Shown: positions 1,502 through 52,515 of the stretch, piece after piece
Numbering within the stretch: the stretch's first letter is position 1
Layout of the letters: every line of letters begins with the position of its first letter
From: Flexilinea sp.
Lineage (GTDB): Bacteria; Chloroflexota; Anaerolineae; Anaerolineales; Anaerolineaceae
NCBI GenBank assembly: GCA_026645735.1
Contig: JAPKMT010000018.1
Location: forward strand, 1 to 52,847
Direction: 5' to 3'
DNA: 52,847 nucleotides
Made by a program: the position numbers and the translations under genes
The notes under the pieces: generated by a model
Databases searched by the model: none
Seen by the model: the letters and a program-made list of their open reading frames with translations, nothing else
What the model was told of the DNA's origin: nothing

Positions 1502-2986
1502 ATGAAAAAAATCTTAGTCTTTGTGGTTGCTTATCAGGCAGAAAAATTCATTGAGGATGTACTGAATCGCATATCCGGACAAATCCGTGCTCCATATTCA
1601 TATGAAATTTTAGTAATCGATGATTGTTCTAAAGATAGAACTTATGAAATAACACAGAAATTTGTGGATGCGCATCCGGATATTCAAATAACCAATCTCT
1701 ATAATCCGATCAATCAAGGATATGGTGGTAATCAGCAAATCGGATACCAATATGCGATTGACCACAATTTTGATGTGGTAGTGCTCTTGCATGGAGACGG
1801 TCAATATCCTCCGGAATACATCAACGAGATGGCTGAACCGATCCTCAGTGGGGATTTCGATGTAATGCTTGGATCGCGAATGAAAGTAAAGAGTGATGCT
1901 TTGCGCGGCGGGATGCCTCTTTATAAATGGGTTGGCAACCAAATCTTGACCTGGTCTGAAAATGTGCTGCTGAAACAAAAATTGAGCGAATACCATACCG
2001 GATTCCGGGCATATAAAGTTGATGTATTGCAGCAGATTCCTTTTAAATTTAACTCAAAATATTATGATTTTGACACCGATATCATCATTCAGATAGCAGA
2101 TAATCATTACCGCATCGGTGAGATCCCAATCCCGACAAAATACGGTGACGAAATATGCCGGGTAAACGGGATGAAATATGCAAAAATGATTATGAAATCC
2201 TGTGTCGAATCCCGAATTATGCGATTCGGTCTCTTTTATAATCCGAAATTTGATTATGGAAACCAAAGTCAGGACCAGTCATTATATAAGGGAAAATTTG
2301 GTTTATTTAGCACGCATCAATTTACAGTTGACTTGCTTGCATCCGGTTCAAATGTTTTAGATCTGGGAGCCGGCCCCGGGTATATGGCGAAGGCGTTGAA
2401 AGATAAAAACATAACTGTAACGTCTGTTGACAGGATTATCACGCAAGAGTTAGAAGTGTATTCCAAAAAAACAATACAGGCTGATTTAAATGAACTGGAT
2501 TTATCAGAAATCCATGACCAGTTCAATTACATTTTGTTGTTAGATATTCTTGAATTTTTAGACTCACCTGAAAAATTGCTGCAGCAAATTCGGGATTCTT
2601 ATGCACCCGATCACCCGCAAGTCATCATTTCAACCGGGAATGTTGCTTTTTGTATCACAAGACTCAGCTTATTCCTTGGAAAATTTAATTATGGAAGACT
2701 GGGCATTCTTGAATTGAAAAAGAAGCGTTTATTCACCCAAAATTCTTTAATTCGAATTCTAAAAGACAATGGTTACCAAATTACAACGGTCAAAGGAATC
2801 CCGGCTCCATATCAAAAAGCCGTCCCCAACCATCAGAGGCTTTCTTCTTTCCTGCAACATGTCAACAATTTTCTGATTCGCATTTCTAAAGGTTTATTTG
2901 CATATCAAATCGTAGTAATCGCCAAACCAGTCCTGACACTGCCGCAATTATTAGAAAATGCGAAGCGTCGGAAATCATTACAGTAA
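1502..2986 (+). CDS. Fusion of family 2 glycosyltransferase and SAM-dependent methyltransferase
   Basis: 494 aa, two domains. Residues 1 to about 230 are a GT-A fold glycosyltransferase family 2 domain (polyprenyl-phosphate sugar transferase/DPM1-like): FVVAYQAEKFIEDVLNRI, then VIDDCSKDRT and the acidic LLHGDGQYPPEYI motif that binds metal and nucleotide sugar. Residues from about 265 to 450 form a class I methyltransferase: NVLDLGAGPGYMAKAL is SAM motif I, and LLLDILEFLDSPEKLL is the post-II region. No multi-pass membrane segment is apparent. The likely role is building and methylating a surface glycan or a lipid-linked sugar; the acceptor is unknown. The stop codon TAA at 2984-2986 lies inside the left end of a repeat element, so the present C-terminus was set or trimmed by that insertion. 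Confidence 0.8.
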   Translation: MKKILVFVVAYQAEKFIEDVLNRISGQIRAPYSYEILVIDDCSKDRTYEITQKFVDAHPDIQITNLYNPINQGYGGNQQIGYQYAIDHNFDVVVLLHGDGQYPPEYINEMAEPILSGDFDVMLGSRMKVKSDALRGGMPLYKWVGNQILTWSENVLLKQKLSEYHTGFRAYKVDVLQQIPFKFNSKYYDFDTDIIIQIADNHYRIGEIPIPTKYGDEICRVNGMKYAKMIMKSCVESRIMRFGLFYNPKFDYGNQSQDQSLYKGKFGLFSTHQFTVDLLASGSNVLDLGAGPGYMAKALKDKNITVTSVDRIITQELEVYSKKTIQADLNELDLSEIHDQFNYILLLDILEFLDSPEKLLQQIRDSYAPDHPQVIISTGNVAFCITRLSLFLGKFNYGRLGILELKKKRLFTQNSLIRILKDNGYQITTVKGIPAPYQKAVPNHQRLSSFLQHVNNFLIRISKGLFAYQIVVIAKPVLTLPQLLENAKRRKSLQ

Positions 2987-3103
2987 TTCGAATTTTGGAA
3001 AAGCCTTTTGAGAAAAAAGAGAAAATTTGTTGTTGTGTTGTTTTTGCGCAGAGCGCAAAAACAACACAACAACAAATAATTCTCTCCATGTTTCAAATCG
3101 CTG
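2981..3103. repeat. MITE-like element, copy 1 (123 bp, full length)
   Basis: It starts CAGTAATTCGAATTTTGG and ends TTTCAAATCGCTG, which are imperfect terminal inverted repeats. A perfect 25-bp stem (3025-3049 with 3053-3077) with a 3-base loop forms the core. The 9-bp sequence AAATCATTA occurs immediately before (2972-2980) and after (3104-3112) the element, as expected for a target-site duplication. The TAA within the first 6 bases is the stop codon of the upstream glycosyltransferase gene. No coding capacity. Confidence 0.85.
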
Positions 3104-3182
3104 AAATCATTATCAGGTATGAATGATTAAGACTGACCTGTTAAACAGATAAAGCTCCACTGCATTTCAATTGACTGAACTT

Positions 3183-5039
3183 TTATAGGCATTCCATCAG
3201 AAATTTGGTTGTTGTACGCAAATAATCCCGAATTGTTTCAGGTTTCCGAAAACCATGACCTTCACCCTCGTAAAGGCGATAACAAGTTCGAGAGCCAATT
3301 TTTGCGATCATCTCTGTGGATTGGTCGGGACGAACAACAAAATCACGGTCACCCTGGAAAACTGCGATGGGAGTTTTTATACTGCCGGCATGAAAAACAG
3401 GAGACCATGCATCAAATTTTTCACGGGCATCTGGCAGTGTTCCAACCAGTGAATCTGTATAATGAAGTTCTAATTTATGGGTATCGGTAATTGTTTGATA
3501 AAGATTCGTTACCCCGTATAGAACAATAGCAGCACGAAAAAAATCTGGATATTGAATTAGAGCGTTATAAACAGTATATCCGCCTGCACTGCTTCCCATA
3601 AGAAAAATACGCTTTCGGTCGGCAAAATCCATTTTTGCCAAGACTTCCGCACCGCTAACTGCATCTTCGACGTCATACTCCCCCCAATGTCCATTCAGAG
3701 ATTCCAAATAAGTTCTGCCATATCCATGACTACCGCGATAATTTACCTCCAACCATCCAAATCCTCTGGTTGTAAAATACAGGGCTTCCGGATTCATCTC
3801 CAGATTGGCTTTTCCAGTCGGGCCGCTATGAACACGAACAATCGCAGGCGGCTGACCTGGCCATGCAAAATCGGGATTTACCGGAGGATAGTAGATTCCA
3901 TGAATGATTGTGCCGTTTTTCGCCTCCCAGGACAATTCAAGCGGTTTTGAAAAAAACGACAACGGCAGATCGTCAGGATTGATTCGATAAACAATAGAGA
4001 TTTGAGTACGGTCAATACACAGAACATGAGCAAAAACGGTTGGGCCGGATGCGACTGCAGCAATTTTTTCCCCGGTTTTTAAGACAGAAACTGCATGAAA
4101 AACCGTGTAGTCAGGAATTTCAAGCTTTTCTTCCGAATCAGATTCAAGATATTTAATCCACAACGAACTTTTTGGACCATAAATTTTGGTAAACAGTATC
4201 CGTTTATTGTCTCCGAACCAGTCATACGAATGGTCTCCCTGACTAAAAGCAGGATTGGATAGAGCGAACCGTTCCCCCTGAACAATGATCCTTTCTGAAC
4301 CATTTTCCAAATCGACTAAAACAAGATCTTCCCAATCTCCGTTGGAACGAATAAAACTGATTTTTTTGCCATCGGGAGAAAACTGTGGCTGGTTTGCAGG
4401 AAAAGAAACACCACCGCTGACAGTACGTATGGTGATGATTCGATGATCAGAGGGGTCGATTTCAGCCAGCATCACTCTGGATGCCTGCCACGCCATATGA
4501 GGATGATCCCATTCCACCCAGGAAAAATGACGTCCGTCAGGGCTCCAGGTTGGCTGCATATAAAAATCAGCTCCTTGAATCCACTGCACTGGCCAGGAAT
4601 CTCCATGAAGCGTCAGCAACGCAATGCAATCATTCTCGCCATCGCTGCAAACAAATGCTGCACATCGATGATCCGGTGAAATGATCGGAGATGCTGATGC
4701 ACGACCGTCTTTCGTTAATTCTCGGATGGATGATCGGCCTGGATCACGGAGGCAAAGTCCTTTTTCTCCGGCAACAAACAGAATGCTCCCTTCGCGGACA
4801 TCAAAGTCACCACCGCCATATCCGACTGTTCCGCCGACAGGATACCCACCGCTGATGTCCCGCAATCCGTTTTGAATATTCCATTCATACAAAAAATTTT
4901 TCCCATCTTTGGATCCGGAAAAAACTAATGACTCATGAGATTGTTGCGTATCCCAATGAATACAGGATATTCGGCCGCGATGAGCGACAAAATCTTCATC
5001 AATTGGACTTTTCCACATACCATGGGGGATTATTTTCAT
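3183..5039 (-). CDS. Prolyl oligopeptidase family (S9) serine peptidase
   Basis: 618 aa from the chosen start. The first ~370 residues are beta-propeller-like with WD40/TolB-type repeats (for example WSPDGRHFSWVEWD, FSPDGKKISFIRSNGDW). The C-terminal ~240 residues form the alpha/beta-hydrolase catalytic domain, with nucleophile motif GSSAGGYTVYN, acid in FQGDRDFVVRP and histidine in GEGHGF. No signal peptide is seen, so it is probably a cytoplasmic acylaminoacyl- or dipeptidyl-type peptidase that degrades short peptides. The start is the ATG at 5037-5039, preceded on the minus strand by AAGGAGC. The open frame extends 53 codons further upstream to 5198, but that part translates the adjacent repeat element and is not expected to be protein. 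Confidence 0.88.
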   Translation of the reverse strand: MKIIPHGMWKSPIDEDFVAHRGRISCIHWDTQQSHESLVFSGSKDGKNFLYEWNIQNGLRDISGGYPVGGTVGYGGGDFDVREGSILFVAGEKGLCLRDPGRSSIRELTKDGRASASPIISPDHRCAAFVCSDGENDCIALLTLHGDSWPVQWIQGADFYMQPTWSPDGRHFSWVEWDHPHMAWQASRVMLAEIDPSDHRIITIRTVSGGVSFPANQPQFSPDGKKISFIRSNGDWEDLVLVDLENGSERIIVQGERFALSNPAFSQGDHSYDWFGDNKRILFTKIYGPKSSLWIKYLESDSEEKLEIPDYTVFHAVSVLKTGEKIAAVASGPTVFAHVLCIDRTQISIVYRINPDDLPLSFFSKPLELSWEAKNGTIIHGIYYPPVNPDFAWPGQPPAIVRVHSGPTGKANLEMNPEALYFTTRGFGWLEVNYRGSHGYGRTYLESLNGHWGEYDVEDAVSGAEVLAKMDFADRKRIFLMGSSAGGYTVYNALIQYPDFFRAAIVLYGVTNLYQTITDTHKLELHYTDSLVGTLPDAREKFDAWSPVFHAGSIKTPIAVFQGDRDFVVRPDQSTEMIAKIGSRTCYRLYEGEGHGFRKPETIRDYLRTTTKFLMECL

Positions 5040-5065
5040 GAAAAGCTCCTTCCAATGATACATAT

Positions 5066-5191
5066 CAGTAATTCGAAATTTGGAAAAACCTTTTGAGAAA
5101 GAAGAGAAAATTATTTGTTGTTGTATTGTTTTTGCGCGGAACGCAAAAACAATACAACAACAAATTACTCTACCCATATTTCGAATCGCTG
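5066..5191. repeat. MITE-like element, copy 2 (126 bp)
   Basis: It begins CAGTAATTCGAAATTTGG and ends CATATTTCGAATCGCTG. The core stem is about 24 bp (5113-5136 with 5142-5165). Flanks are GATACATAT (5057-5065) and GATACACAT (5192-5200), an 8/9 match consistent with an ageing 9-bp target duplication. It sits between the S9 peptidase start and the terminator of the rho-M23 operon. Its internal sequence creates a false N-terminal extension of the S9 reading frame. Confidence 0.83.
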
Positions 5192-5200
5192 GATACACAT

Positions 5201-5225
5201 AAAAAAAAGCGCCTGAGCGCTTTTT
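5201..5225 (-). terminator. Intrinsic terminator of the rho-M23 peptidase operon
   Basis: On the minus strand, immediately after the stop of the M23 peptidase gene, an AAAGCGC/GCGCTTT stem with a 4-base TCAG loop is followed by a run of T. On the plus strand the arms are 5204-5212 and 5217-5225. Confidence 0.8.
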
Positions 5226-6329
5226 CTATAGTACATTCCACGGATTGACGTAGCCACCGCCATACCGTACTTCAAAATGCAGGTGGGGTCCGGTAGAATT
5301 TCCGGTACTTCCACCATAACCAATCACCTGACCCTGGGATACAGCCTGTCCGCAGCCGACTGATGTTGAACTTAAATGTGCATAAAGGGATTGATATCCA
5401 TTTCCATGATCAAGCATCACCATGATACCATAACCGCCACTGATTGGACCAGAATAGATCACGGTCCCGGCATCAACAGCATAGATCGGACCACCCTCCA
5501 CCGATCCAAGATCCAACCCCAGGTGCCCTGACCAAAAATCATTGCCAGTTAGAGTATGGCTTGCAGTCGGCCAGACAAATGAACCGCTTCCGTAAGCCTG
5601 ATAATCCCATGAGCAGCCGCCAGGTCCGACAATACTCTTTTTTACACCGGAACCTTTCGAATAATCGAATACAATCGGGTTGATCACGGCAGTTTCCCGA
5701 TAACCTCCGGGAAGCATCAAATAATCACCAGGTTTGATTTGTGGATTGGTAATATCCAGATAATTTGCAGGGTATGCCAGAATATCCTTTACTTCAACGC
5801 GATATTTATCGGCAACTTTCTGAAGCACGTCACTTTCTTTCCATTTGTAATAAATACCATCTCCGGGTGGAATAATTATTTCATCTCCAATCGAGATATT
5901 TTGAACATCATCATATAGAACATCGTAATTCGCCCACAAAACACTTTCCGGTTCCAGTCCATACTTTTTCGCAATTCCATAGATGGAATCTCCAGCCTTG
6001 ATAGTGTATTTAACCGGTTCAATATTTCCACGATCTGGTTTATTCGTTGTCAGATCGGATTTTCGATTGAGCGAGTCAGGCGCATTGATTTGAAATTCAT
6101 CCAAGGAATCAGGCAATGCCGGATTCGATTCAACCTGTACTGCCAACTGCGATCCGGTATTGTTGGATATTCCATTTTTGTCTGTTGTACCGCGAATGTA
6201 GGGTGTTCTCTGGACCATGACAACACCCATAAAGAACACACAGATCAGAGCAACTACCCACAACAAAATTGTGATCCATGCCGGGAGACCTTTTTGGTGA
6301 TGCTCCGGCTTAATGGATTTAAAACTCAC
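5226..6329 (-). CDS. Membrane-anchored LysM and M23 (LytM) peptidase
   Basis: 367 aa from GTG. Residues about 15-40 form one transmembrane helix, so the rest faces the cell wall. Two LysM modules follow (about residues 105-155 and 158-210, with IKAGDSIYGIAKKYGL and IKPGDYLMLPGG), then an M23 domain in the last ~120 residues. Zinc ligands are visible: HLGLDLG (HxxxD), LYAHLS and HLHFEVRYG (HxH). The predicted role is peptidoglycan endopeptidase or amidase activator in wall remodelling. The GTG start overlaps the rho stop by 4 bases (GTGA at 6326-6329) and is preceded by GGAGGG, so translation is coupled to rho. A longer frame to 6479 exists, but it lies wholly inside rho and was rejected. Confidence 0.88.
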   Translation of the reverse strand: MSFKSIKPEHHQKGLPAWITILLWVVALICVFFMGVVMVQRTPYIRGTTDKNGISNNTGSQLAVQVESNPALPDSLDEFQINAPDSLNRKSDLTTNKPDRGNIEPVKYTIKAGDSIYGIAKKYGLEPESVLWANYDVLYDDVQNISIGDEIIIPPGDGIYYKWKESDVLQKVADKYRVEVKDILAYPANYLDITNPQIKPGDYLMLPGGYRETAVINPIVFDYSKGSGVKKSIVGPGGCSWDYQAYGSGSFVWPTASHTLTGNDFWSGHLGLDLGSVEGGPIYAVDAGTVIYSGPISGGYGIMVMLDHGNGYQSLYAHLSSTSVGCGQAVSQGQVIGYGGSTGNSTGPHLHFEVRYGGGYVNPWNVL

Positions 6330-7600
6330 ATACCCTCCGTCAAATTTTCTAAAAATTCGAGATTTGTTTTGGCTTTCGACATCTTTTGAATGATCGCCTC
6401 TGTCGCGACCGAAGTGTCCATACCAGCTCCCTGTGGCGGCTGTCCAATCATCTGCATATACATCCGGCGCATCAACCAAACACGAGGCAGCAAATCCGGA
6501 CCTAATAATAATTCCTCACGTCTGGTTCCCGACTTTTCAATATCAATTGCCGGGAAAATGCGTCGTTCCTGAAGTTTTCTTGACAAATGCAACTCCATAT
6601 TGCCGGTTCCCTTGAACTCTTCGTACACAACGTCATCTAACCTGGATCCTGTATCAACCAACGCAGTAGCCAGAATCGTCAGAGATCCACCTTCCTCTAA
6701 ATTTCTTGCTGCGCCAAAAAACCGTTTTGGGGGATACATCGCAGAAGGATCCATACCTCCGGAAAGGGTTCGTCCTGACGGGTTGACTACCATATTATAA
6801 GCTCTTGCCAATCTGGTTAAGCTATCCATCAGAATGACAACATCCTTGCCGATTTCTACCAGCCGTTTGGCTCTGTCAAGCGTAATTTCTGATGTACGGA
6901 CATGAGAATTAACCGGTTCATCAAATGTCGAAGCCACAACCTCCGCATCTACGGATCGATCCATATCAGTGACTTCTTCCGGACGTTCTCCAATCAATGC
7001 AATGATCAGATGCACATCCGGATAACTGGACGAAATTGCATTGGCAATTTGTTTCAAAATGGTTGTTTTACCTGCTTTGGGTGGGGATACAATCATACCA
7101 CGCTGTCCACGGCCAATCGGTGCGATCAAATTTATTAACCGGGAGGCTAAACTGGCATGATCATACTCAAGGTCAAAACGTTCTTCCGGGAAAATAGGCG
7201 TCATGGATTCAAAAGACTTCCGGTGTTTTGCTTCTTCCGGTGTCAATCCATTAATAGATTCGACTTTTAATAATCCGAAATGTCGTTCTGACTCTCGCGG
7301 GGGACGAACCAAACCGATTACCTGATCACCGCTCCTCAAATCGTATCTTCTCAATTGCGCCTGGGATACATAAACATCTTCGGGACCAATCTGATAATTT
7401 GCCCGCAGAAAGCCAATCCCTTCATTCATAATTTCCAGAATTCCGCCTCGAATTTCGACTCCTTCTTTTTCACCCTCAGCTTGCCGAATTCTTACAACCA
7501 GTGCATCTTTTTTCATTCGCTGAGAATTCGGAATTTCCATATCCTTGGCGATTTTTCGCAGTTCTGCCAGTGTTAAATTATCCAAACCTTCTGTCTTCAT
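6326..7600 (-). CDS. rho: Transcription termination factor Rho
   Basis: 424 aa, the normal length for Rho without a large insertion. Rho N-terminal helical domain (residues 5-38, [16 protein letters not shown]), cold-shock-like RNA-binding domain (about 52-125, [17 protein letters not shown]), then the RecA-type ATPase with Walker [11 protein letters not shown] (about 175) and Walker [17 protein letters not shown], followed by the Q- and R-loop regions. The hexameric helicase terminates untranslated transcripts. The downstream peptidase is translationally coupled by a 4-bp overlap. A promoter more than 320 bp upstream implies a long untranslated leader, consistent with the autoregulation of rho known in other bacteria. 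Confidence 0.98.
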
Positions 7601-8855: not shown

Positions 8856-8978
8856 CAGCAAATCGAAATATGGATTGGATTTTCGAATAACGAAAGAAAA
8901 TTTGTTGTTCTTATGGTTTTGCGCGAAGCGCAAAACCATAAGAACAACAAAGAAAACTTTTCATATTTCGAATTCCAA
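8856..8978. repeat. MITE-like element, copy 3 (123 bp)
   Basis: The left end is CAGCAAATCGAAATATGG, and the right end contains CATATTTCGAATT but has lost the terminal CTG. A perfect 24-bp stem (8901-8924 with 8928-8951) surrounds a GAA loop. ATTCCATAC occurs directly before (8847-8855) and after (8979-8987), a perfect 9-bp duplication. The match extends to a 19-bp direct repeat (8839-8857 and 8971-8989). Confidence 0.82.
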
Positions 8979-10444: not shown

Positions 10445-10567
10445 CAGCGATTCAAAATATGGGAAGAATTATTCGTTATCGTATTTTTTAGAGATCCATA
10501 TAAAACAACACAATAACCAGTTTTCTCAAGTGAATCAAAAGGAAAGTCAATATTTCATATTACGAAG
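10445..10567. repeat. Fossil MITE-like element (degenerate)
   Basis: The left end CAGCGATTCAAAATATGGG matches the family. Further segments resemble copy 5 in order (GAATTA..., AAACAACACAA, GTTTTCTC, AATCAAAAGG, TTTCATATTACG), so an old full-length copy is likely. The hairpin no longer pairs well, and no 9-bp flanking duplication is left. It occupies much of the 381-bp gap between the thioredoxin-cyclophilin gene and tmk; nothing else is seen there. Confidence 0.5.
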
Positions 10568-14004: not shown

Positions 14005-14078
14005 CAGCAATTTTAAATGTGAGAAAGATTATTTTTTCTCCTTTAATTCGAAGTGTTTATCTAAATTTCGAATCACAG
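14005..14078. repeat. Internally deleted MITE-like element (74 bp)
   Basis: The left end is CAGCAATTTTAAATGTG and the right end AAATTTCGAATCACAG, both family termini, but the central hairpin is missing. Flanks CTGTTAATC (13996-14004) and TTTTTAATC (14079-14087) match at 7 of 9 positions, consistent with an old target duplication. It fills the gap between the unknown gene and the LysM protein gene. Confidence 0.6.
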
Positions 14079-18238: not shown

Positions 18239-18278
18239 CAGCGATTCGAAATATGGAAAGAAATATTTAGAATCGCTG
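18239..18278. repeat. Minimal 40-bp MITE-like element with perfect 9-bp duplication
   Basis: CAGCGATTCGAAATATGG at the left and ATATTTAGAATCGCTG at the right are joined by only a few bases; the hairpin core is absent. TGCGATATC is present immediately before (18230-18238) and after (18279-18287), a perfect 9-bp duplication. This defines the element ends and duplication length very clearly. Confidence 0.82.
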
Positions 18279-19773: not shown

Positions 19774-19896
19774 CAGCAATTCGAAATATGAACCAATCTT
19801 TCGAATCGATCGAGAAAAAAAGTTGTTGTGTGGTTTTTGCACGAAGCGCAAAAACCACACAACAACATATACTTCTTCGCATTTTTCGAATTACTG
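19774..19896. repeat. MITE-like element, copy 4 (123 bp)
   Basis: It starts CAGCAATTCGAAATATG and ends TTTTTCGAATTACTG. The core stem of 21 bp (19822-19842 with 19846-19866) has one A/C mismatch and a GAA loop. Flanks ATAGACATC and ACCGACATA match at 6 of 9 positions (core GACAT), a probable worn target duplication. It lies in the ssb leader region. Confidence 0.78.
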
Positions 19897-23794: not shown

Positions 23795-23916
23795 CAGTGA
23801 TTCGAAATATGGGGAGAATTACTTGATGTTGTGTTGTTTTTGCGCTTTGTGCAAAAACAACACAACATCAAGTTTTCTCTTTTTCTCAAAAGGCTTTTCC
23901 AAATTTCGAATTACGG
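23795..23916. repeat. MITE-like element, copy 5 (122 bp, reverse orientation)
   Basis: It begins CAGTGATTCGAAATATGG and ends AAATTTCGAATTACGG (final CTG changed to CGG). Stem of 25 bp with one G/T pair (23821-23845 with 23849-23873). The asymmetric CTCAAAAGGCTTTTCC block lies on the right rather than the left, so it is inserted opposite to copies 1, 2 and 6. AAAAAAATA precedes (23786-23794) and follows (23917-23925) it: a perfect 9-bp duplication, though in low-complexity sequence. It lies between the divergent mmdA and rplS genes. Confidence 0.82.
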
Positions 23917-29002: not shown

Positions 29003-29069
29003 CAGTGATTTGAAATATGGGGTTATTTACGACCAGATATATAAGGTATGCCAATATTTTGATTTGCTG
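29003..29069. repeat. Internally deleted MITE-like element (67 bp)
   Basis: The left end is CAGTGATTTGAAATATGG and the right end AATATTTTGATTTGCTG; the hairpin is lost. Flanks ATATTCGAA (28994-29002) and ACATTCTAA (29070-29078) match at 7 of 9 positions. It lies between the LUD gene and the end of uvrC. Confidence 0.58.
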
Positions 29070-31521: not shown

Positions 31522-31644
31522 CAGTAATTCGAAATTTGGTGAAGCCTTTTGAGAAAAATGGGAGATCTTGTTGTTGTGACGTAGTTGTGCGAAGCGCAAC
31601 TACGTCACAACAACAATTATTCTTTTCGTTATTTGGAATTGCTG
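31522..31644. repeat. MITE-like element, copy 6 (123 bp)
   Basis: It starts CAGTAATTCGAAATTTGG and ends TTATTTGGAATTGCTG. Perfect 9-bp duplications GATAAATGT occur at 31513-31521 and 31645-31653. The stem (31568-31590 with 31594-31616, 23 bp with one wobble) differs strongly in sequence from other copies (GACGTAGTTG instead of GTTGTTTTTG) but remains paired. It lies between dtd and the CDF gene. Confidence 0.88.
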
Positions 31645-33778: not shown

Positions 33779-35287
33779 CTAAAAACCGGCTGGTCTTCCC
33801 ATCATCCAATAAGGAAAATTCGTTGAAACGTCCTCTTTTTTGCCATAAACATCCAATTCAATCTCATCCCCCTCTTTCAAGTGGTCAGACAGAATTTGGA
33901 CGTTTGGTCCGCTGATCACACCGATTGTGACCTCATTATCTTCAAAAGAACCATCGGCTTTCTTTTGACGAATCCAGTATTTTCCTTTTTCCAACAAAAT
34001 GGATGTCTGCGGAACATATAAAACATCCGCTAAAGAATAAATATCAATCTTAATGTCCGCAGTCATTCCTGATTTGACTTTCTCATCAGAGTCGGTTAAA
34101 GCGACAGAAATTTTAAATGAAACAGATTGGCCTGATGTTTCTCCAGTATCAGAGATGTTTGTCACAATACCATGATACACTTTTTCCGGAATTGCAGTAA
34201 AGCTGATTTGAATTGGCATATCAAGCTGAATGTAATTGATATATAACTCAGAAACACTAAAATCAATAAAAAACGTTGAAATATCATCAATCCGGGCAGC
34301 AAAAATATTTCTCAGTGCAGTTGAGGAATCATAAGCAATGATATCGTTGGTTTTTGCATCAATTTTTGTTACCGTCCCTGTAAAGGGAGCGATAATATTC
34401 GATGAATCCATTTTTGTCTGTGCGGCATCAATTGCAGCCTGCGCTGCATTTATTTTCGCCTCAGAAGGTCCATTGATCAATTGATCATATTGATACTGTT
34501 TTTCTTCCAGAGTGGCTTTGGCCAGGATCAATCTTCCTTCGCGAATTTGACGTTCCAATCCATCAATTTGTCCCAGATACCAGTTATATTGCGCCAATGC
34601 ATTGTCCCGGACAGACCGATATCCGCCAACATCTCCCAATCGTTTTATTCGGGTGGCATCGGCAGCATCATAATCACGAGTCGTCTCAAACTTGGCAATT
34701 GCGGCGTCATAATCATCCTGAGCCTCTAAATATGTTTCATATGCTAGATCAATATTCAGATCGGTCGCCCGTGAAACATCCATGCTGTCAAGTGATTTCT
34801 GAGCATCTTCAACTTCTTTTTGTGCAGTAACCAAAGCGGATAATGCCTCGGATAACGCTGTTGAATTATCGATCAATTCCTCCATGGCATCCTGAGCATC
34901 TTCCAGTTCAAGTTCAGCGTTAAGGATATCCTGATCCAGGGTCTGCGGATCTAATGCTGCCAGAATGTCCCCTTTTTCTACCAAATCCCCTGCTGCAACA
35001 TTAACTTCACTGATCGTTCCGCTTGTCTGCCAATACAAATCTACCGATTGATTGGATCGAACAGTGCCAGTTATATCCTCCACAACCATCGTAAGCGGAC
35101 CTTTTTTTATTTTTGTAGTTTCAACTTCACCGGATGCCGCCAGTAGCAATGCTGTCTGTATTTGTTGTTGTTGGAATACCGAAATACCAATTATCGCTGC
35201 AATCAGCAGTATGAGTGCCAATATTAACACAGCAATAATGCAGCCTGGCTTTCGATTTGTTTTTTTCTTCTCAATTTTGTGATCCAT
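33779..35287 (-). CDS. HlyD/RND-type membrane fusion protein (adaptor B2)
   Basis: 502 aa from ATG 35285-35287, with AAAGG upstream. N-terminal membrane anchor (about residues 18-42). Lipoyl-like barrel-sandwich pieces flank a long coiled coil (about 100-270): EVNVAAGDLVEKGDILAALD before it and IIAPFTGTVTKIDAKTNDII after it. A beta-barrel region follows (TAIPEKVYHGIVTNISDTGE). It resembles the adaptor encoded at 41578-43155 in order and motifs, so it is a paralogue. It is the last gene of the exporter operon. A repeat-element remnant touches its stop codon. Confidence 0.85.
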   Translation of the reverse strand: MDHKIEKKKTNRKPGCIIAVLILALILLIAAIIGISVFQQQQIQTALLLAASGEVETTKIKKGPLTMVVEDITGTVRSNQSVDLYWQTSGTISEVNVAAGDLVEKGDILAALDPQTLDQDILNAELELEDAQDAMEELIDNSTALSEALSALVTAQKEVEDAQKSLDSMDVSRATDLNIDLAYETYLEAQDDYDAAIAKFETTRDYDAADATRIKRLGDVGGYRSVRDNALAQYNWYLGQIDGLERQIREGRLILAKATLEEKQYQYDQLINGPSEAKINAAQAAIDAAQTKMDSSNIIAPFTGTVTKIDAKTNDIIAYDSSTALRNIFAARIDDISTFFIDFSVSELYINYIQLDMPIQISFTAIPEKVYHGIVTNISDTGETSGQSVSFKISVALTDSDEKVKSGMTADIKIDIYSLADVLYVPQTSILLEKGKYWIRQKKADGSFEDNEVTIGVISGPNVQILSDHLKEGDEIELDVYGKKEDVSTNFPYWMMGRPAGF

Positions 35288-41577: not shown

Positions 41578-43155
41578 CTATTGGGGACGTCTGCCGCCGC
41601 CTGCACCTGAAGGAGGCCCACCGGCTCCGCCTCCGGGTACGCCCCCTGGACCCGTGCCAAATCCCATACCACCCATCGGGAATCTTGTGTTCATATCCAT
41701 GGAAGGCAAATTGATTTTCACTTCGTCACCCTCTTGAATCTGATCTGAAATAATTTGAATATTGGAGTCAGTCTTCATCCCCAACTGAACTGCAATGTCT
41801 GAATATGTTCCATCATCATTCTTTTTATTTACCGTCCTTATTCCATCTGTGTTCATGGAGATAGCGGCAGCAGGAACATATAAAACCCCAATGGCTTCTT
41901 TCGTAACAATCGCAACATCAGCCATCATGCCGGCTTTTACTTTGTCGTCCACTTGATCCATTTTTACCGTCAATGAAAACGAAACGGAACTTTCTGAAAC
42001 AGTACCAACATTGGAGATATTGGTGATGGTTCCGGAATACTCTTTTAATGGGATGGCATCGAATGAGATCATCACCTTTTGTCCAATCGAGATTTGATTG
42101 ATGTCTAATTCGTTGATCGTGATATCAATAAAATAGGATGATAAATCATCAACCCGAACAGCCATCACATCACGAGAAGAGGAGGTGGATTCATAAGCAA
42201 TTACATCAAATTGTTTTGCACCAACTTCGGCTACAGTACCATTAATCGGCGCAACAATATAGGCTGTTTTCATAATTGCTTCGGCGGCGTTAATTTGCGC
42301 CTGCAAGGAAGAGATCTGCGATTCGGTCGGTCCGCTCTTAATTTTTTCATAAGCTCTGACCGCATCATCATACTGTGCCTGGGCCAGCAGCAAAGCTGCT
42401 TCCGCCTGCTGTTTTTCCAGATCATCCACTTCGCCGTTATACCAGTTGTACATCGACAAAGCACTTTCCATTCCGGAACGGGTCCCTTCAACCATTTGAA
42501 CAGCACGCTGCCGATCCACATCATCCAAAGGTCTTTCGCGCATTGTTTCAAAATTGTCCAGCGCTTTTTCGTAGTTTTCTTTTGCTTTTATATAATCGTT
42601 ATAATAAACACCAATCTCGATTTCATCTTCTCGAACAACCCCCAGTGCATCCAGAGCATCCTGCGCATCCTGTACTGCTTTTTTTGCTGCAGCTACGTTG
42701 GACATTGCTTCAGCAAGATTCAGCGATGAGGTATAGAGACGTTCCAATTTTTCTTCCGCTTCTTCCTTTGTTACTTCTGCCTCAATCACTGAAGAATCAA
42801 TCGTGCTGCTGTCCAATGCTGCCAGAATATCTCCTTTTTTTACAGGATCACCCAACGCAACGTTCACTTCGGTAACCGTACCACTGATCTGCCAGTAAAG
42901 ATAAACGGATTGGTTGGGTCGAACAGTTCCGGAGATATCTTCCAGCTTCTCGGACAAATCCCCTTTTTTGATAAAGGCAGTATCAACCTGACTCGCAATA
43001 ATTTCTTCATTTACTTTTTTAATCTGCTTCTGCATTCGCAGATAATTGAAAACTCCAACGGCAACCACTAATAAAATAATTCCAGTTAAAATCCAAATAG
43101 TTATGGTTGCCTTCGATCGTGGCTTTTTAATTTTTGTTTCCATCTTTTGATCCAT
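41578..43155 (-). CDS. HlyD/RND-type membrane fusion protein (adaptor B1)
   Basis: 525 aa. N-terminal anchor (about 18-40). Barrel-sandwich half EVNVALGDPVKKGDILAALD, a long coiled coil (about 115-275), the second half YIVAPINGTVAEVGAKQFDV, and a beta-barrel domain. The C-terminus is Gly/Pro-rich (GGMGFGTGPGGVPGGGAGG), low complexity and likely unfolded. It is a paralogue of the adaptor at 33779-35287. GAGGAATT precedes the ATG. It follows the lipoprotein adaptor A1 by 46 bp and precedes the ATPase by 15 bp. Confidence 0.87.
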   Translation of the reverse strand: MDQKMETKIKKPRSKATITIWILTGIILLVVAVGVFNYLRMQKQIKKVNEEIIASQVDTAFIKKGDLSEKLEDISGTVRPNQSVYLYWQISGTVTEVNVALGDPVKKGDILAALDSSTIDSSVIEAEVTKEEAEEKLERLYTSSLNLAEAMSNVAAAKKAVQDAQDALDALGVVREDEIEIGVYYNDYIKAKENYEKALDNFETMRERPLDDVDRQRAVQMVEGTRSGMESALSMYNWYNGEVDDLEKQQAEAALLLAQAQYDDAVRAYEKIKSGPTESQISSLQAQINAAEAIMKTAYIVAPINGTVAEVGAKQFDVIAYESTSSSRDVMAVRVDDLSSYFIDITINELDINQISIGQKVMISFDAIPLKEYSGTITNISNVGTVSESSVSFSLTVKMDQVDDKVKAGMMADVAIVTKEAIGVLYVPAAAISMNTDGIRTVNKKNDDGTYSDIAVQLGMKTDSNIQIISDQIQEGDEVKINLPSMDMNTRFPMGGMGFGTGPGGVPGGGAGGPPSGAGGGRRPQ

Positions 43156-47126: not shown

Positions 47127-47179
47127 AATTCAATTCCTTAACGTTTCAAAATGATAGTGATCGATGATCATGGAAGTAT

Positions 47180-47476
47180 TTAATTCTTGTTGTTCAGCCA
47201 TTCTTCCGACAATCGTATCTTTTTTTCACGAGACATTTTTTTTATCTCGATTTCGCGAAGCATCGCATCATGCCTGGATGACAATTCTTCCACATAAACC
47301 AGCGTAACAGGACAATGCGTTTTTGTATAGGCAGCACCACGTCCGGAATTGTGAACCTTCACTCTGCGTTCCGGATTGGTTGTCCAACCGGTATAAAAAG
47401 CATGATTGCTGCAAAGAACCATATAACAAAAAAAGCGCTGCTCGAGATCCGAAACTTCAACATACTGTTGGTTCAC
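47180..47476 (-). CDS. GIY-YIG nuclease family protein (YhbQ/UPF0213-like)
   Basis: 98 aa. Single GIY-YIG domain: FFCYMVLCSNHAFYTGWTTNPERRVKVHN (split here by the Tyr-Thr-Gly core), with catalytic Arg in the ERRV segment and a Glu in LREIEIKKMSREKKIRL. It is a stand-alone domain, unlike uvrC. Family members are small nucleases of unclear role. Its ATG overlaps the stop of the TyrA-like gene by 4 bases. Confidence 0.9.
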   Translation of the reverse strand: MNQQYVEVSDLEQRFFCYMVLCSNHAFYTGWTTNPERRVKVHNSGRGAAYTKTHCPVTLVYVEELSSRHDAMLREIEIKKMSREKKIRLSEEWLNNKN

Positions 47477-48462
47477 TTTTTTTTCTTTCTGGCCAATCCG
47501 CCAAAAAAAAGCTGTCCGAGAAATTCACCGGTAGTGGGGCTATGTGTGTTCGTCTCGCCTTCATGGCGCCATTCTGTTGACTCGTAATCCTTCAGCCATT
47601 TTTCCCTGTCTTCGTTATTATTTGTAAGTAAAGTTTTTAATACACTTTCATCTTCATTTTGGATTGCATCGCGGTATTCTTTCAACGTAAGCATAAATTC
47701 ATGGATTAATCGCAGCGTATTTTCTCGATTTTCCAGTAAAAATTTCCCATACAGTTCACGGTCAGGCTGTTTTGTTACAGACGCTGTCATTTGGGCAAAA
47801 TGCTTACCGCCCAATTTGCGTGCTTCGCGCCAGCTATTTTGTCGTTTGGCTGTATTAAAAATTACGTTACTCATCAAATAGGGTACATTAAATATGGAGG
47901 CGATCAATCCATCCAACTCTTCCGGATCACAAAAAGTGCTATGAGAACCAATTAATGAGGACAGGTCAGATGCCAGTTTAACAACATTGGGATCTGTATC
48001 CGCTGTTGAAGAAATAAAGAGTGTTCCATTTTTAAAAAGATCTTCATGTGCCGAATGGAATTCATCAGAAGGTTCATTCAGCCGTGAGGAATTAACAGCT
48101 GCATAAAGGCCTGCAAAATGCGAAGGGACTTTTAAATATTGATTCGCCCATCTTTTTGCTGCTGTTTTTGCAAAACCAGTCTCAAAGACAACACATTCTT
48201 CTTTTAAATCACTGCCAACCAATTTCAGGACTGATTCAATTTCATCGACAGGAATTGCTAAAAAAAGAATATCTGCGTCTTTGACTGCATCGAAAATATT
48301 GTGTTCAATTCGATCTATTGCATCGACTGACAGTGCATTTTGTTCGGCATATTTATGTATATCCGATCCGATTCGGAGAATTTGTTCTTTCTGATACTGC
48401 AACGCCAGCCCCAATGAAGTACCAATTTCTCCTAATCCAATGATTGTAATTTGTACCGCCAT
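47473..48462 (-). CDS. Prephenate dehydrogenase (TyrA)-like NAD(P)-dependent protein
   Basis: 329 aa. Rossmann NAD site IIGLGEIGTSLGLAL at residues 6-20, a dehydrogenase strand ADILFLAIPVDEI, then an alpha-helical C-terminal half. The usual GSHPMAG catalytic motif of prephenate dehydrogenases is replaced by FAGLYAAVNSSRL, so the assignment to tyrosine biosynthesis is doubtful. The C-terminal tail is Gly/Lys-rich. It sits in a run with the GIY-YIG protein and a site-2 protease and may act on another 2-oxo or hydroxy acid. Confidence 0.7.
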   Translation of the reverse strand: MAVQITIIGLGEIGTSLGLALQYQKEQILRIGSDIHKYAEQNALSVDAIDRIEHNIFDAVKDADILFLAIPVDEIESVLKLVGSDLKEECVVFETGFAKTAAKRWANQYLKVPSHFAGLYAAVNSSRLNEPSDEFHSAHEDLFKNGTLFISSTADTDPNVVKLASDLSSLIGSHSTFCDPEELDGLIASIFNVPYLMSNVIFNTAKRQNSWREARKLGGKHFAQMTASVTKQPDRELYGKFLLENRENTLRLIHEFMLTLKEYRDAIQNEDESVLKTLLTNNNEDREKWLKDYESTEWRHEGETNTHSPTTGEFLGQLFFGGLARKKKK

Positions 48463-48464
48463 GA

Positions 48465-49118
48465 TTATTTGCCTCCCGTAATTAAACGAAATAAACCGAG
48501 AACTATTGGTGAAAGAAAAGATGAAAAAATGTGAATTCGGAAATATGGCAGAATCAAAAATCCTACCAACAGGATCATCGTGCCATAGTTTTGGAAGCTA
48601 TTCCAGAGGGGCTTAAATCTTTGCGGGATAAAAAAGCCAAAAACCTCATGTCCATCCAGGGGAGCAAATGGAAGCAAATTAAAAATCATCAGACTCAAAT
48701 TGATATAAATAAATTGAACCAAAAATGTCCCAAAGAAATACAATAATTGCGATGCCTGAAAAAAAGATTCCGATTGCAAAAAACGAAATAAAAGCCCGGC
48801 TGCAACTGCCAGCAGGAAATTCGACAATGGCCCTGAAAAAGAAACGATCATTAATCCAGCTCTTGATTTCCGCTCAATTACAGCTGGATTAATACGGACC
48901 GGCTTTGCCCATCCGAAACCAGTGGCAATCAGCATGATGGACCCAACGAGATCCAAATGCCGGACAGGATTTAACGTCAGACGACCGTCTTTCCTCGGTG
49001 TCATATCTCCAAATTTATCAGCCGTGAACGCATGAGAAAACTCATGGAAAGAAAAAGCTATCAGCAGCGTGATAATTCTGAAAAGTAAAAGGGTTGGATC
49101 GATTCCTAAACGACTCAT
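48465..49118 (-). CDS. Site-2 protease family (M50) membrane metallopeptidase
   Basis: 217 aa, four to six membrane helices. The zinc motif HEFSH (HExxH) is at about residues 25-29 and the second motif NLLPFAPLDGHEVFG (NxxPxxxxDG) at about 143-157. No PDZ domain, so it is the short type (SpoIVFB/Rip class) that cleaves membrane-embedded substrates. The gene is 2 bp from the TyrA-like gene. The substrate is unknown. Confidence 0.93.
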   Translation of the reverse strand: MSRLGIDPTLLLFRIITLLIAFSFHEFSHAFTADKFGDMTPRKDGRLTLNPVRHLDLVGSIMLIATGFGWAKPVRINPAVIERKSRAGLMIVSFSGPLSNFLLAVAAGLLFRFLQSESFFQASQLLYFFGTFLVQFIYINLSLMIFNLLPFAPLDGHEVFGFFIPQRFKPLWNSFQNYGTMILLVGFLILPYFRIHIFSSFLSPIVLGLFRLITGGK

Positions 49119-49317
49119 GCCTCAATTATATCAGGTGCAAAATTTGTAGTTTTATTGGTTTTGCGCAGATCTTTATTTCAATTTTCCTTGACAATGGAAA
49201 TTTGAAATAAATGCCAGTGTTAGTAAAAATCAATCATTTTTCGAAATTGGAATATTTTCTATCCAAACAGATAGTCTCATTTATCAAATTGATTCTGCAA
49301 TCTTAACCTTTTTTGCA

Positions 49318-50808
49318 TTAAAAACCTGAATAGATAAATTTATTGACTTCGTAACTGGGGCCATAAATGCCATAGATCAGAATAAAAAAAATGCACCCGA
49401 TAATTAATACCCATCGAAACCACAAGGGCTGATGATCAATTTTCACTCGCAAGCTTGTTTGATCTCGCTGAAGCCAGTTGACAACAAAAAGGATGATCAG
49501 CGAAAAGATGGTAATTTCGAAATTCGTTCTATCCATCCCGAATGTAAACAAATTGGCATTGAATAATAGACTTGGATTGAATCGAAAAATACCACGGATA
49601 AAAGTAAAAGCATGTTCTAATGATTCTGATCGGAAGAAAATCCAGGCAAAATTTACCAGGAAGAAGGTAAAGAGAGTCTGAGCTAGTTTAAATCCAAAGG
49701 TACCATATGTTTTTATATTGTGAAGTTTCTTATGAAAAACAGGGGTCAACAAGTTTTCAATAATTTGATAAATACCGTGTAAAAATCCCCAAAAGATAAA
49801 ATTCCACCCTGCTCCATGCCATAGGCCGGATACTATGAAAACAATCATAATATTTCGAAGGTGCCGAATTTTACTGACACGATTTCCTCCCAATGGAATA
49901 TAAAGATAATCGCGAAACCATGTCGTTAAAGAGATATGCCAACGTTTCCAGAAATCCACAATACTTTTTGCAAAATATGGTCTGCGAAAATTATCTGAAA
50001 CAGTAAATCCTAATACTTGCGCGGCTCCAATCGCAATATCTGAGTATCCAGAGAAATCGCAATAAATTTGGAACGAATAAAAAATTGAAGCAATCATTCC
50101 GATAACGCCTGAGTGTGTATAAAGGTCTTGATTATTAAAAACTTCATTGACCATTAAAGCCAATCGGTCTGCAATGACAAATTTTTGAAAATAACCCCAC
50201 AGCATCAGCCACAAGCCATGTTTGACATTTTCAAAACCGAATTTTTTTGGATCTGTAATTTGTGGGATTGTCGAAATTGCTCTATCAATAGGTCCCGAAA
50301 TAATTGTAGGGAAGAAAGCCACATAAGCAGCATATTTAAACAAGTTCTTTTCCGCATCTATCTTCTCACGATAATTATCCATCAGATAAGAAATGACTTT
50401 AAATGTATAAAAAGAAATACCTAAAGGCAAAATAAAACTAAAAGGATTCTCTATTTGTATAAAGTGGATTCGGTTCAATATTTTATTCAGATTAAGGAAG
50501 AAAAAATCCAAATACTTAAAGAAAAAAAGAATTCCTATGTTTATTGATATACAAAAAAATAAAATAATTTTTTGACCAAATTTCCTAGGTTTTTTATCTC
50601 TTTTTTTCAAATATTGAATTCCAATGCCTCCAATATATGTGATGATGGTTGAAAACAACAACAATAATGGTAATTTTTGATTCCAAGAAAAATAAAAAAA
50701 ATAACTAATAAATAGTATCCAAAACCAACGGATTTTTTTTGGAATGATATAGTAAAAAAGACATACAATCGGAAAGAATAAAAAGAAATTTTGAGATGTG
50801 TAAAGCAT
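49318..50808 (-). CDS. MBOAT family O-acyltransferase (AlgI/DltB-like)
   Basis: 496 aa with about ten to twelve membrane helices. The MBOAT core is visible: YCDFSGYSDIAIGAAQVLGF, FWKRWHISLTTWFRDYLYIPLGGNRVS (active-site-proximal His) and SGLWHGAGWNFIFWGFLHG with the catalytic His. It transfers acyl groups from the cytoplasm toward an extracellular polymer. It is followed in the operon by an SGNH-type partner, as in alginate or teichoic-acid acetylation systems. The polymer is unknown; DltB is less likely because no dltA/dltC is present. Confidence 0.92.
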   Translation of the reverse strand: MLYTSQNFFLFFPIVCLFYYIIPKKIRWFWILFISYFFYFSWNQKLPLLLLFSTIITYIGGIGIQYLKKRDKKPRKFGQKIILFFCISINIGILFFFKYLDFFFLNLNKILNRIHFIQIENPFSFILPLGISFYTFKVISYLMDNYREKIDAEKNLFKYAAYVAFFPTIISGPIDRAISTIPQITDPKKFGFENVKHGLWLMLWGYFQKFVIADRLALMVNEVFNNQDLYTHSGVIGMIASIFYSFQIYCDFSGYSDIAIGAAQVLGFTVSDNFRRPYFAKSIVDFWKRWHISLTTWFRDYLYIPLGGNRVSKIRHLRNIMIVFIVSGLWHGAGWNFIFWGFLHGIYQIIENLLTPVFHKKLHNIKTYGTFGFKLAQTLFTFFLVNFAWIFFRSESLEHAFTFIRGIFRFNPSLLFNANLFTFGMDRTNFEITIFSLIILFVVNWLQRDQTSLRVKIDHQPLWFRWVLIIGCIFFILIYGIYGPSYEVNKFIYSGF

Positions 50809-50823
50809 AATTTCCTATCCGGG

Positions 50824-52296
50824 TTATTTCACAGTTTTTAAACCTGTTTGAGGATCAAATGTAACATTGTCAAGAATCAGTCCCTTTTCTTTGTCATACA
50901 CAAGTATGTTTAAACCATGTTGATACGTTGCTACAATTTCATGGTTTAATTTGATCTGGATCGGTATTGTTGTCGTTGTTGAATTTTGAACATAAAAATA
51001 TTCATTCAAATACACGTTAAAAGGGTAATTAACTTCTACTATTCGACTGGGTTTTTCAATCACCGCTTTTCCTTGATCAATAATCCCAATAAAACAGGTC
51101 GAGTGGTCCTTTTTATTGCCAATAAAACCAAAATCCTGTAATTTCTCAATAGCCTTACGGGGCAACAGGTCATAATCTCCATCACCGCCAGTTAGCACAC
51201 TGATATAATGAGGATTGTCAATACGATTGAGGAAATCGGATAGTTCATTTATTTCTTTGAGGTGATGTATATTATCATAATATGTGTAAGCATCATTCCA
51301 ATTTTGTACCGTATCATTTGCTCTTGAACTGTTCAATTCGTAATTCGACGCCAAATATCTTCCAAACCAGGAAGATATTTTTTCCGCCCCGAATACATTC
51401 AAGTGACCATTATCTTTAAAATCAGTTGTCGAATGAATTCCGATCTCACCAACCCGCGTATTGAGCTCAAGAAATGGAACCTTATTCTGTTCTGCGATTG
51501 AAGCGATGTAATTGATTTGTTGATAATCTGTTAGTGATGTTTGATAGGGAATGGCTGTCAAAAGGAGTGGTATGTGATTGTCTTTTGCCCACTGAATCAT
51601 TTCCAACAGAGTCTTTTCATTTTCAGAAAGAATTGGTTTTTTTTCAATAATTTGATTCAGGTTCTGTAAAAACTTGAACTCATAAATGGAATCGAAATAT
51701 GTATACTCTTTCAGCAAACTTGTTGTATTTATAAACGGGTATAGAAAATCTTGATTTGATAATTCTTCTTTCATTAATCTGGAATGGTATTTTACAAGAG
51801 GAAATAGAAACTCCATTTTATTCTGAATTCTTTCAGTGTGGATGATGGAAACTGCTTTCTTTAGTGTAAGAGGAAATGGATCCAGTGCCTTATGATTCCA
51901 TTCAGATGCATCAAAATTAACTTCTCTGAGAAACATATATACGTCTAAGACGATAAGTTTCGGCTTTTGAAAATCTTGAGATAATCTGGCAAGCATCAAA
52001 CTTGCATAAGGCATCTGAGCATTGGTAGCCAGTGAATAGGATGTGATCTGCTGTTCATTCCAAATAATTAGAGGATTTATTCCACAAAGGACATGACTGC
52101 TTCCCAGAAAAAGAACATTTATTGAGTTTTTCGGTTCATTAACAAAAAAATTGGAAGCTTCCATTCGATCTTTTAATAGAAACACTTTGTTGACGTAGTT
52201 ATATAGAATGACAGCGAAAATAAAGAATAAAATGATGGAAAATATTCTTTTAAATACCGAAGAAGAAAAAAACGCCAGATTCTTTTTTTGTTTCAT
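50824..52296 (-). CDS. SGNH-hydrolase-like membrane-anchored acyltransferase partner (DltD/AlgX-like)
   Basis: 490 aa. N-terminal helix anchor (about 14-32). The SGNH catalytic elements are NVLFLGSSHVLCGINPLI (GSSH, nucleophile Ser, about 59-76) and, near residue 295, DFKDNGHLNVFGAEKI (Asp and His). The C-terminal part (about 340-490) is an extracellular beta-rich domain. It is probably the enzyme that moves the acyl group onto a polymer outside the membrane, working with the adjacent MBOAT protein, which follows by 15 bp. Confidence 0.8.
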   Translation of the reverse strand: MKQKKNLAFFSSSVFKRIFSIILFFIFAVILYNYVNKVFLLKDRMEASNFFVNEPKNSINVLFLGSSHVLCGINPLIIWNEQQITSYSLATNAQMPYASLMLARLSQDFQKPKLIVLDVYMFLREVNFDASEWNHKALDPFPLTLKKAVSIIHTERIQNKMEFLFPLVKYHSRLMKEELSNQDFLYPFINTTSLLKEYTYFDSIYEFKFLQNLNQIIEKKPILSENEKTLLEMIQWAKDNHIPLLLTAIPYQTSLTDYQQINYIASIAEQNKVPFLELNTRVGEIGIHSTTDFKDNGHLNVFGAEKISSWFGRYLASNYELNSSRANDTVQNWNDAYTYYDNIHHLKEINELSDFLNRIDNPHYISVLTGGDGDYDLLPRKAIEKLQDFGFIGNKKDHSTCFIGIIDQGKAVIEKPSRIVEVNYPFNVYLNEYFYVQNSTTTTIPIQIKLNHEIVATYQHGLNILVYDKEKGLILDNVTFDPQTGLKTVK

Positions 52297-52392
52297 TAAT
52301 CTCTCTTAACGATCCTTTACATAAAAAAACTTTAACAAAGATTCAATTTAAGTAACGGTCTGCGTTTCAAATTTCCATAGTCAAGGAAAAAG

Positions 52393-52515
52393 CAGCAATT
52401 CGAACTATGATGGGGATTTTTTATTGTTGATTTATTTTTGAGCGTAGCACAAAAATAAATCAACAATAAGATAACTCTTATTAATCAAAAGGTCGATCAA
52501 AGATCCGAATTGCTG
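52393..52515. repeat. MITE-like element, copy 7 (123 bp, reverse orientation)
   Basis: It begins CAGCAATTCGAACTATG and ends GATCCGAATTGCTG. The stem is 25 bp with one mismatch (52419-52443 with 52447-52471), with sequence unlike other copies (TTGTTGATTTATTTTTG). The AATCAAAAGG block lies on the right, so it is inserted in reverse. Flanks match at 6 of 9 positions. Its right end abuts the insertion sequence. Confidence 0.78.

Follow-up and report, generated by a model that had tools for sequence, protein, structure and literature searches.

Bacterial miniature inverted-repeat transposable elements (MITEs) that carry hairpins, such as ERIC and Nezha, are 100–150 bp long, end in terminal inverted repeats, duplicate their target, contain no gene and occur in many intergenic copies. 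How the two arms of a hairpin can change together without passing through a broken intermediate is an old question that has mostly been studied in RNA genes, where selection is a confounding factor. Passages of one study name arm homogenization and spacer inversion as the two marks of template switching between short inverted repeats (PMC8604942), and passages of another, on rRNA genes, expect compensatory changes joined with loop inversion to be its strongest support and report them as extremely rare (PMC8794818). Here we analyze a family of roughly 123-bp elements found in seven full copies on a 52,847-bp stretch of DNA from Flexilinea sp. (Anaerolineaceae; contig JAPKMT010000018.1), referred to below as the window. 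The window makes up contig C9 in G000, our name for the assembly to which it belongs (3.35 Mb in 86 contigs, 92% complete). We think it probable that the elements form a MITE family that was spread by a DDE-type transposase and in which the arms of a central palindrome are kept equal by template switching.

A dispersed family with 9-bp target duplications

The sequence-only reading of the window had described the repeats as MITE-like, with terminal inverted repeats, 9-bp target duplications and no coding capacity, and had expected further copies in the genome. All of this was borne out, with hundreds of dispersed end sites, and the elements are supported as a MITE family. An 18-bp pattern of the element ends (at most one mismatch) occurs at 464 sites in the 3.35-Mb genome, and the same pattern read backwards as a control at none. 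Among relatives, the pattern was found 371 times in Flexilinea flocculi (G037, a congener of the window's host with a 3.5-Mb genome), 69 times in G048, four times in G049, and not at all in G038 or G045. It is present in 4 of the 147 genomes of the family Anaerolineaceae, all of this genus and the window's own included. The matches listed for the pattern included F. flocculi TC1, two uncultured Anaerolineaceae, one Saprospiraceae and one Verrucomicrobia contig. The Saprospiraceae match (L127) was taken as chance, there being no palindrome by eye. The contig binned as Verrucomicrobia UBA1412 holds one good copy near its end (L143:7532–7655), which adjoins helicase-like frames that lack a close counterpart in the compared parts of Flexilinea; either misbinning or transfer between phyla would account for it.

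Copies and statistics were drawn from 0.77 Mb of G000, and from 2.0 Mb (copies) or 1.6 Mb (end-pair statistics) of F. flocculi. Copies of 112–132 bp number 87 in the former and 276 in the latter, which extrapolates to about 380 and 480 full-length copies per genome. In G000, 67 of the 87 copies lie outside open reading frames (ORFs) of at least 120 amino acids (aa), 12 overlap one partly and 8 lie inside. A query with one copy gave 40 strong matches among the best 40 of 412 candidates scored, the same places matching more weakly on the opposite strand. Since these best copies, the query itself aside, are only 88–94% identical to it, much of the spread is old.

The 9-bp duplications are far beyond chance. 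In G000, 22 of 169 end pairs are flanked by a perfect 9-bp duplication and 42 by one of 8/9 or better, while control lengths of 4–8 and 10–13 bp gave one perfect case (at 4 bp) or none. The corresponding counts in F. flocculi are 13 and 62 of 429, with at most five perfect cases (at 4 bp) for the other lengths between 4 and 13 bp. Most of the window aligns with F. flocculi at 69–88% identity (median block identity between the two genomes about 81%), and in the parts compared syntenic flanks were available for 51 of the 87 G000 copies and 58 of the 276 F. flocculi copies. A length filter for absence of the element was passed by 11 and 22 of these, respectively, some of which still hold element-like sequence. 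Among these 33 there is one exact empty site of the kind by which the duplications were to be checked: the F. flocculi copy at C3:1194225–1194348 (duplication 8/9) has a counterpart on G000 contig C2 that is continuous and contains a single 9-bp target, GATGGTGAA. By direction, exact empty sites number 1 for the 58 F. flocculi copies and 0 for the 51 G000 copies whose flanks are syntenic. As for the window's own copies, the one at 31522 has no F. flocculi counterpart, though the intergenic DNA is too diverged for a precise empty site. All that F. flocculi has near 8856 is a pair of ends spanning 68 bp, and its sequence at 2981, 5066, 19774 and 23795 is element-like but has another target duplication. 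G049 shows a break at the junction of the 23795 copy, but its right flank differs.

The palindromic core and its changes between copies

The more informative feature of the elements is one that the sequence-only reading lacked. All seven full copies in the window contain a palindrome with arms of 19–25 bp around a loop of 3–7 nt, five of them without a mismatch and two with one. When copies were taken with no selection on the stem, 43 of 82 in G000 and 30 of 209 in F. flocculi paired at 20 of 20 positions, compared with at most 14 and 15 for shuffled cores. The analyses of stem change used copies with at least 15 of 20 positions paired (232 of 363, those without a recognizable stem being dropped), a selection that raises the within-copy values that follow. 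The arms agree at 19.22 of 20 positions within a copy and at 15.14 across copies in G000 (65 copies), and at 17.46 and 12.81 in F. flocculi (167 copies). No comparable excess is seen in the 18-bp terminal repeats of these copies (13.05 within and 13.36 across in G000, 12.47 and 12.44 in F. flocculi), and in G000 there is even a slight deficit, with 998 of 1000 shuffles reaching or exceeding the within-copy value. Because the terminal repeats show no excess, shared descent does not account for the coupling of the arms, which is confined to the close palindrome.

GNA triloops make up 25 of 39 and 45 of 81 of the loops closed by two further pairs, where 12.5% would be expected if triplets were equal, an excess to which common descent also contributes. 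The commonest 7-nt loop is GCGAAGC in G000 and its complement, GCTTCGC, in F. flocculi; the former is described in passages of PMC4686876 as an unusually stable DNA minihairpin. Rfam covariance models gave no match in the window at the gathering threshold.

To follow changes in the stem, each copy was paired once with its nearest relative by flank sequence, and changes were compared with a simulation of independent mutation at the flank rate. The 13 closest pairs (at most 8 flank differences) contain 14 two-sided, 10 one-sided and 2 uncompensated changes, for which the simulation gave 0.3, 36 and 1.4. At 9–12 flank differences (18 pairs) the counts are 35, 36 and 4, and over all five classes (111 pairs) they are 355, 297 and 82, with simulated values of about 16, 695 and 90 (hand sums). 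A variant count restricted to stems of at least 17/20, with copies reused, gave 17 two-sided, 8 one-sided and 1 uncompensated change in 19 pairs. The stem register was set at the best-complementing centre; in a few pairs an apparent two-sided change could therefore come from a shift of register, and at least two loops are off register. The mismatches that remain are divided between G-T and A-C as 6:6 and 88:99, with 15 and 134 of other kinds; because A-C is as common as G-T, a constraint from RNA pairing is disfavored.

The loop centre is inverted as often as not. In 55 disjoint pairs the central triplet is identical in 15, the exact inverse in 14, the plain reverse in 1 and the plain complement in 1. 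Random re-pairing of the triplets gave 7.1 identical and 7.3 inverted, and 14 inverses were reached in 18 of 2000 shuffles. Where the flanks differ at no more than 9 positions (16 pairs), the triplet is identical in 3 and inverted in 5. A looser tally of 54 pairs placed 28 nearer the same and 26 nearer the inverse orientation, a tally in which inversion and scrambling are indistinguishable.

Sites shared between the two species were also compared (five of 11 proposed pairs and one more, six being set aside as non-orthologous or stemless by eye); in their labels, C stands for contigs of G000 and F for those of F. flocculi, F3 being contig C3 of G037. At C11:52474 / F2:49002 the flanks are shared and the stems differ by 6 two-sided, 5 one-sided and 1 uncompensated change; because the flanks are shared, these stems probably changed after insertion. 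C2:55230 / F3:1190386 shows 1 two-sided, 1 one-sided and no uncompensated change, and C11:113991 / F2:77876 shows 7, 3 and 4 in an uncertain register. The window copy at 52393 differs from its F. flocculi counterpart only by an inversion of the loop and one one-sided change, and the site at C11:16225 is identical between species. At C2:1613 / F3:1164500, where the stem is broken in both species, there are 8 one-sided and no two-sided changes. The 120-bp flanks of these last two copies (L043:1613–1735 on G000 contig C2; L230:4500–4621, which is G037 C3:1164500–1164621) score as identical, while the element between them differs.

Template switching is favored as an explanation because arm homogenization and spacer inversion are its two marks. 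In the mechanism we propose, a DDE-type transposase would recognize ends of the form CAGYRATTCGAAATWTGG, make a 9-bp staggered cut and so spread non-autonomous elements of about 123 bp. When single-stranded, the core palindrome (19–25 bp, with a 3–7-nt spacer that is often a GNA triloop) would fold as DNA into a very stable hairpin, within which the polymerase may switch template at replication. A mutation arising in one arm would thereby be lost again or passed on to its partner arm, with an occasional inversion of the spacer. More tentatively, and at a little short of an even chance, the family may serve as a record of such switching at replication: hundreds of palindromes without sign of selection at the RNA level, a loop that inverts before flank divergence reaches about one tenth, and single events that account, as double changes, for much of the fixed change in stems.

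Candidate transposase and competing explanations

The sequence-only reading had proposed that the elements were moved by a transposase encoded elsewhere, and this is supported: F. flocculi carries a strong candidate that has these ends and is flanked by a perfect 9-bp duplication, while the search of the window's own genome for a related transposase found none. The candidate is a 1,632-bp element with MITE-like ends (L151:821–2452) and a 446-aa ORF for a putative DDE-type transposase. It ends in CAGCAATTCGAAATATGAG and, as reverse complement, CAGTAATTCGAAAAATGA, and is flanked on both sides by GCATTCTGT (9/9). By hand count, its two ends agree with the end pattern of the MITEs at 17 and 16 of 18 positions. 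The element was located through the PF01609 profile, which has three matches in four genomes of the genus, one of them inside it; the surroundings of the other two were checked for the motif TTCGAA only. A screen for longer elements with both ends and a duplication of at least 8/9, from 131 bp to 8 kb, found none in the 0.77 Mb of G000, where 48 of 23,162 pairs passed, all of them at most 130 bp long. In the 1.6 Mb of F. flocculi, stretches that do not include the 1,632-bp element, 101 of 71,747 pairs passed. Of these, 27 are longer than 130 bp, where chance would give roughly 8 to 24 (hand estimate), and in nearly all of the 27 one end or both carry 5 or 6 mismatches. Six F. flocculi stretches match 78–97 bp of the left end of this insertion sequence (IS) at 73–81% (G037 C1:189066, C2:78556, C2:42685, C3:1183940, C3:1180878 and C3:76093), and several of them contain a repeat of their own, TTGCGAG...CTCGCAATGACAG.

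Membership of the 446-aa protein in the ISAs1 family did not find support: it scores below cut-off with both PF13808 (20.6 bits, cut-off 32.3), which we take to be linked to that family, and PF01609 (19.2 bits, cut-off 23). NCBIfam transposase models, used as a test for ISAs1 and IS4, gave no match to it at E up to 10, and two of its relatives match transpos_IS4_2 far below cut-off. Passages of PMC8147514 and PMC3542288 do not settle the IS family of the element. Relatives of the transposase are present in 3 of the 147 family genomes, one of them broken, and in thirteen plasmid records. Six of these records and one family genome were examined for ends, a perfect duplication of 7–10 bp being demanded, and CAGCAATT ends with a perfect 9-bp duplication were found in five of the seven: an Anaerolineaceae relative, Calothrix, Anabaena, Nostoc and Saccharobesus. 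No ends were found for the relatives from Gloeothece and Methylomagnum. In the same comparison the Flexilinea element ends in CAGCAATT and CAGTAATT. In an alignment of five proteins the 446-aa protein is 33–38% identical to four relatives, and the invariant residues include D128, D216 and E344, which we read as a putative DDE-like set. One relative only, that of the Gloeothece plasmid record, is labeled 'ISNCY family transposase'. The transposase most likely belongs to an uncharacterized CAGCAATT-ended group, with the ISNCY label resting on a single annotation. Judged on ends and duplication, a CAG-ended, 9-bp-duplicating group is a well-supported candidate source of the MITEs, and we infer that a transposase of the F. 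flocculi type may have moved those in the window.

A different transposase with similar ends, since lost, could also have moved the MITEs, leaving the F. flocculi element as only a cousin. The 1,632-bp element shares only its ends with the MITEs, no relative was found in the window's own genome, and the age of much of the spread agrees with a vanished source. On the other hand, the close match of both IS ends to the MITE pattern and the agreement in duplication length speak for the element at hand. The search for other transposases covered the PF01609 profile, with two other matches in the four genomes; we regard a lost transposase as somewhat unlikely. Much less probable are the alternatives for the core itself. 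Selection on an RNA hairpin (a terminator, an mRNA-stability or a regulatory element), with compensatory changes arising in sequence, would explain the strong stem, the placement of most copies outside ORFs and the near-perfect stems of G000 copies with worn duplications. It is nonetheless very doubtful, given that G-T is no commoner than A-C although RNA tolerates G-U, that the closest copies hold 14 two-sided changes where 0.3 are expected under independence, that loop centres are inverted as often as not and that Rfam is silent in the window. Alternatively, transposition or the choice of target may require the palindrome in DNA form; only copies whose stems are perfect would then spread, and the many stem types would go back to numerous old lineages that were active. 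This idea is in keeping with a weak tendency of G000 copies with better duplications to have better stems (correlation 0.15) and with the remnant-like look of shortened copies without a palindrome. We consider it unlikely all the same, for in the closest pairs the frequency of two-sided changes per position is roughly two thirds that of flank differences (14/260 against 7.9%, hand calculation), which is fast for a two-step crossing of a fitness valley, and the C11:52474 / F2:49002 stems differ as listed above apparently without intervening transposition. Equally improbable in our view is gene conversion between dispersed copies, which would swap whole cores, keep arms equal and move stems between flanks. 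Hundreds of similar copies are there to convert one another, and stems in G000 are better preserved than duplications, but near two master stems 14 and 18 types of two-sided change are private to one copy (12 and 12 one-sided types near the same stems), unless the donors lie outside the analyzed parts, and loop inversion does not follow from conversion alone.

Several observations weigh against a family spread by this transposase and homogenized by template switching. G000, at 92% completeness, gave no relative of the 446-aa protein in a search that did detect F. flocculi, nor in one at E up to 10, and F. flocculi has only one such transposase, whose element the MITEs resemble at the ends only. 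One-sided changes are also frequent, at 36 to 35 two-sided in the 9–12 class. Many F. flocculi stems are imperfect, with the mean of 17.46/20 obtained even in chosen copies; correction is therefore slower there or the copies are older, and it does not keep up everywhere. G000 copies with duplications worn to 6 or 7/9 still have stems of 18.71 and 19.33/20 (n = 7 and 6), a pattern compatible with template switching, with gene conversion and with selection. The one-sided decay of the broken stem at C2:1613 / F3:1164500 is predicted by template switching once pairing is lost and equally by neutral decay. A host function can still be entertained because the copies lie mostly outside ORFs, and the results cover only part of either genome (0.77 of 3.35 Mb and 2.0 of 3.5 Mb). 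In any case, the data suggest a better fit with template switching on DNA than with selection on RNA, and we infer that template switching, over selection or conversion, is the likeliest cause of the equality of the arms.

Copies in the window and relation to known systems

The seven full copies have the positions, lengths and target duplications that the sequence-only reading had given them, with one copy reversed relative to the others and with the near-variant ends it had mentioned (CCAA at the end of the 8856 copy, CGG at that of the 23795 copy). Worn or shortened copies that it had not noted are included in the table. The three that lack the palindrome look like products of its deletion after insertion.

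Table. Copies of the MITE family in the window (positions in bp)
Feature	Position	Strand	Target duplication	Core and remarks
Full copy, 123 bp	2981–3103	+	AAATCATTA, 9/9	Palindrome 3025–3077, 25-bp arms, loop aga
Full copy, 126 bp	5066–5191	+	8/9	Palindrome 5113–5165, 24-bp arms, 5-nt loop
Full copy, 123 bp	8856–8978	+	ATTCCATAC, 9/9	Palindrome 8901–8951, 24-bp arms, loop gaa
Worn copy, 121 bp	10445–10565			Degraded stem; found as end pair; left end site
Shortened copy, 74 bp	14005–14078		7/9	No palindrome
Remnant, 40 bp	18239–18278		TGCGATATC, 9/9	Ends only, no palindrome
Full copy, 123 bp	19774–19896	+	6/9	Palindrome 19822–19866, 19-bp arms, 7-nt loop
Full copy, 122 bp, opposite orientation	23795–23916	-	AAAAAAATA, 9/9	Palindrome 23821–23873, 23-bp arms, 7-nt loop
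Shortened copy, 67 bp	29003–29069		7/9	No palindrome
Full copy, 123 bp	31522–31644	+	GATAAATGT, 9/9	Palindrome 31568–31616, 22/23 pairs, loop gaa
Full copy, 123 bp	52393–52515	+	6/9	Palindrome 52421–52469, 22/23 pairs; central 7 nt inverted relative to near-identical F. flocculi copy

The last copy lies within a 275-bp unit (52358–52632) that is 97.8% identical to F. flocculi C3:842441–842715, while the DNA immediately preceding 52358 aligns with F. flocculi C1 at 88% identity; a recent move or recombination of the unit seems to lie behind this. A 133-bp direct repeat elsewhere in the window (34950–35082 and 42812–42944, 74% identity) lies in long ORFs and is probably paralogous coding sequence.

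No published description of the Flexilinea family was found in a literature search that was thin on subscription journals, and the terms 'isncy' and 'chloroflex' do not occur in the main text, as available, of a MITE review (PMC10969869). The family is new, its kind is known, and its variant feature is the fast, coupled evolution of the core. It ties a large MITE family of a poorly studied phylum, by ends and duplication length, to an uncharacterized group of insertion sequences. It also supplies palindromes replicated some hundreds of times, with sites that can be aligned in at least two species; double changes and inverted loops are both common among them, and an explanation through RNA is disfavored.

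The family shares with ERIC and Nezha the size, terminal repeats, target duplication, lack of genes and intergenic placement, but it has other ends, a 9-bp duplication, a palindrome that changes on both arms together and a loop centre found in either orientation. With the CAGCAATT-ended DDE insertion sequences, the Flexilinea element has in common the ends and the perfect 9-bp duplications; those elements differ from the MITEs in their length of 1.4–1.9 kb and in holding a gene for a transposase, or a match to such a gene. In G000 the most frequent 7-nt loop is identical to the d(GCGAAGC) minihairpin with its GNA loop, which the passages of PMC4686876 treat as a component of synthetic aptamers, with no link to mobile elements. 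Finally, arm homogenization and spacer inversion are common to the Flexilinea MITEs and to quasipalindrome correction as set out in passages of PMC8794818 and PMC8604942; there it is described in rRNA genes, microRNAs and yeast coding genes, and PMC8794818 calls the joint occurrence of compensatory changes and loop inversion extremely rare, whereas here 14 of 55 disjoint pairs of mobile-element copies have an exactly inverted loop centre.

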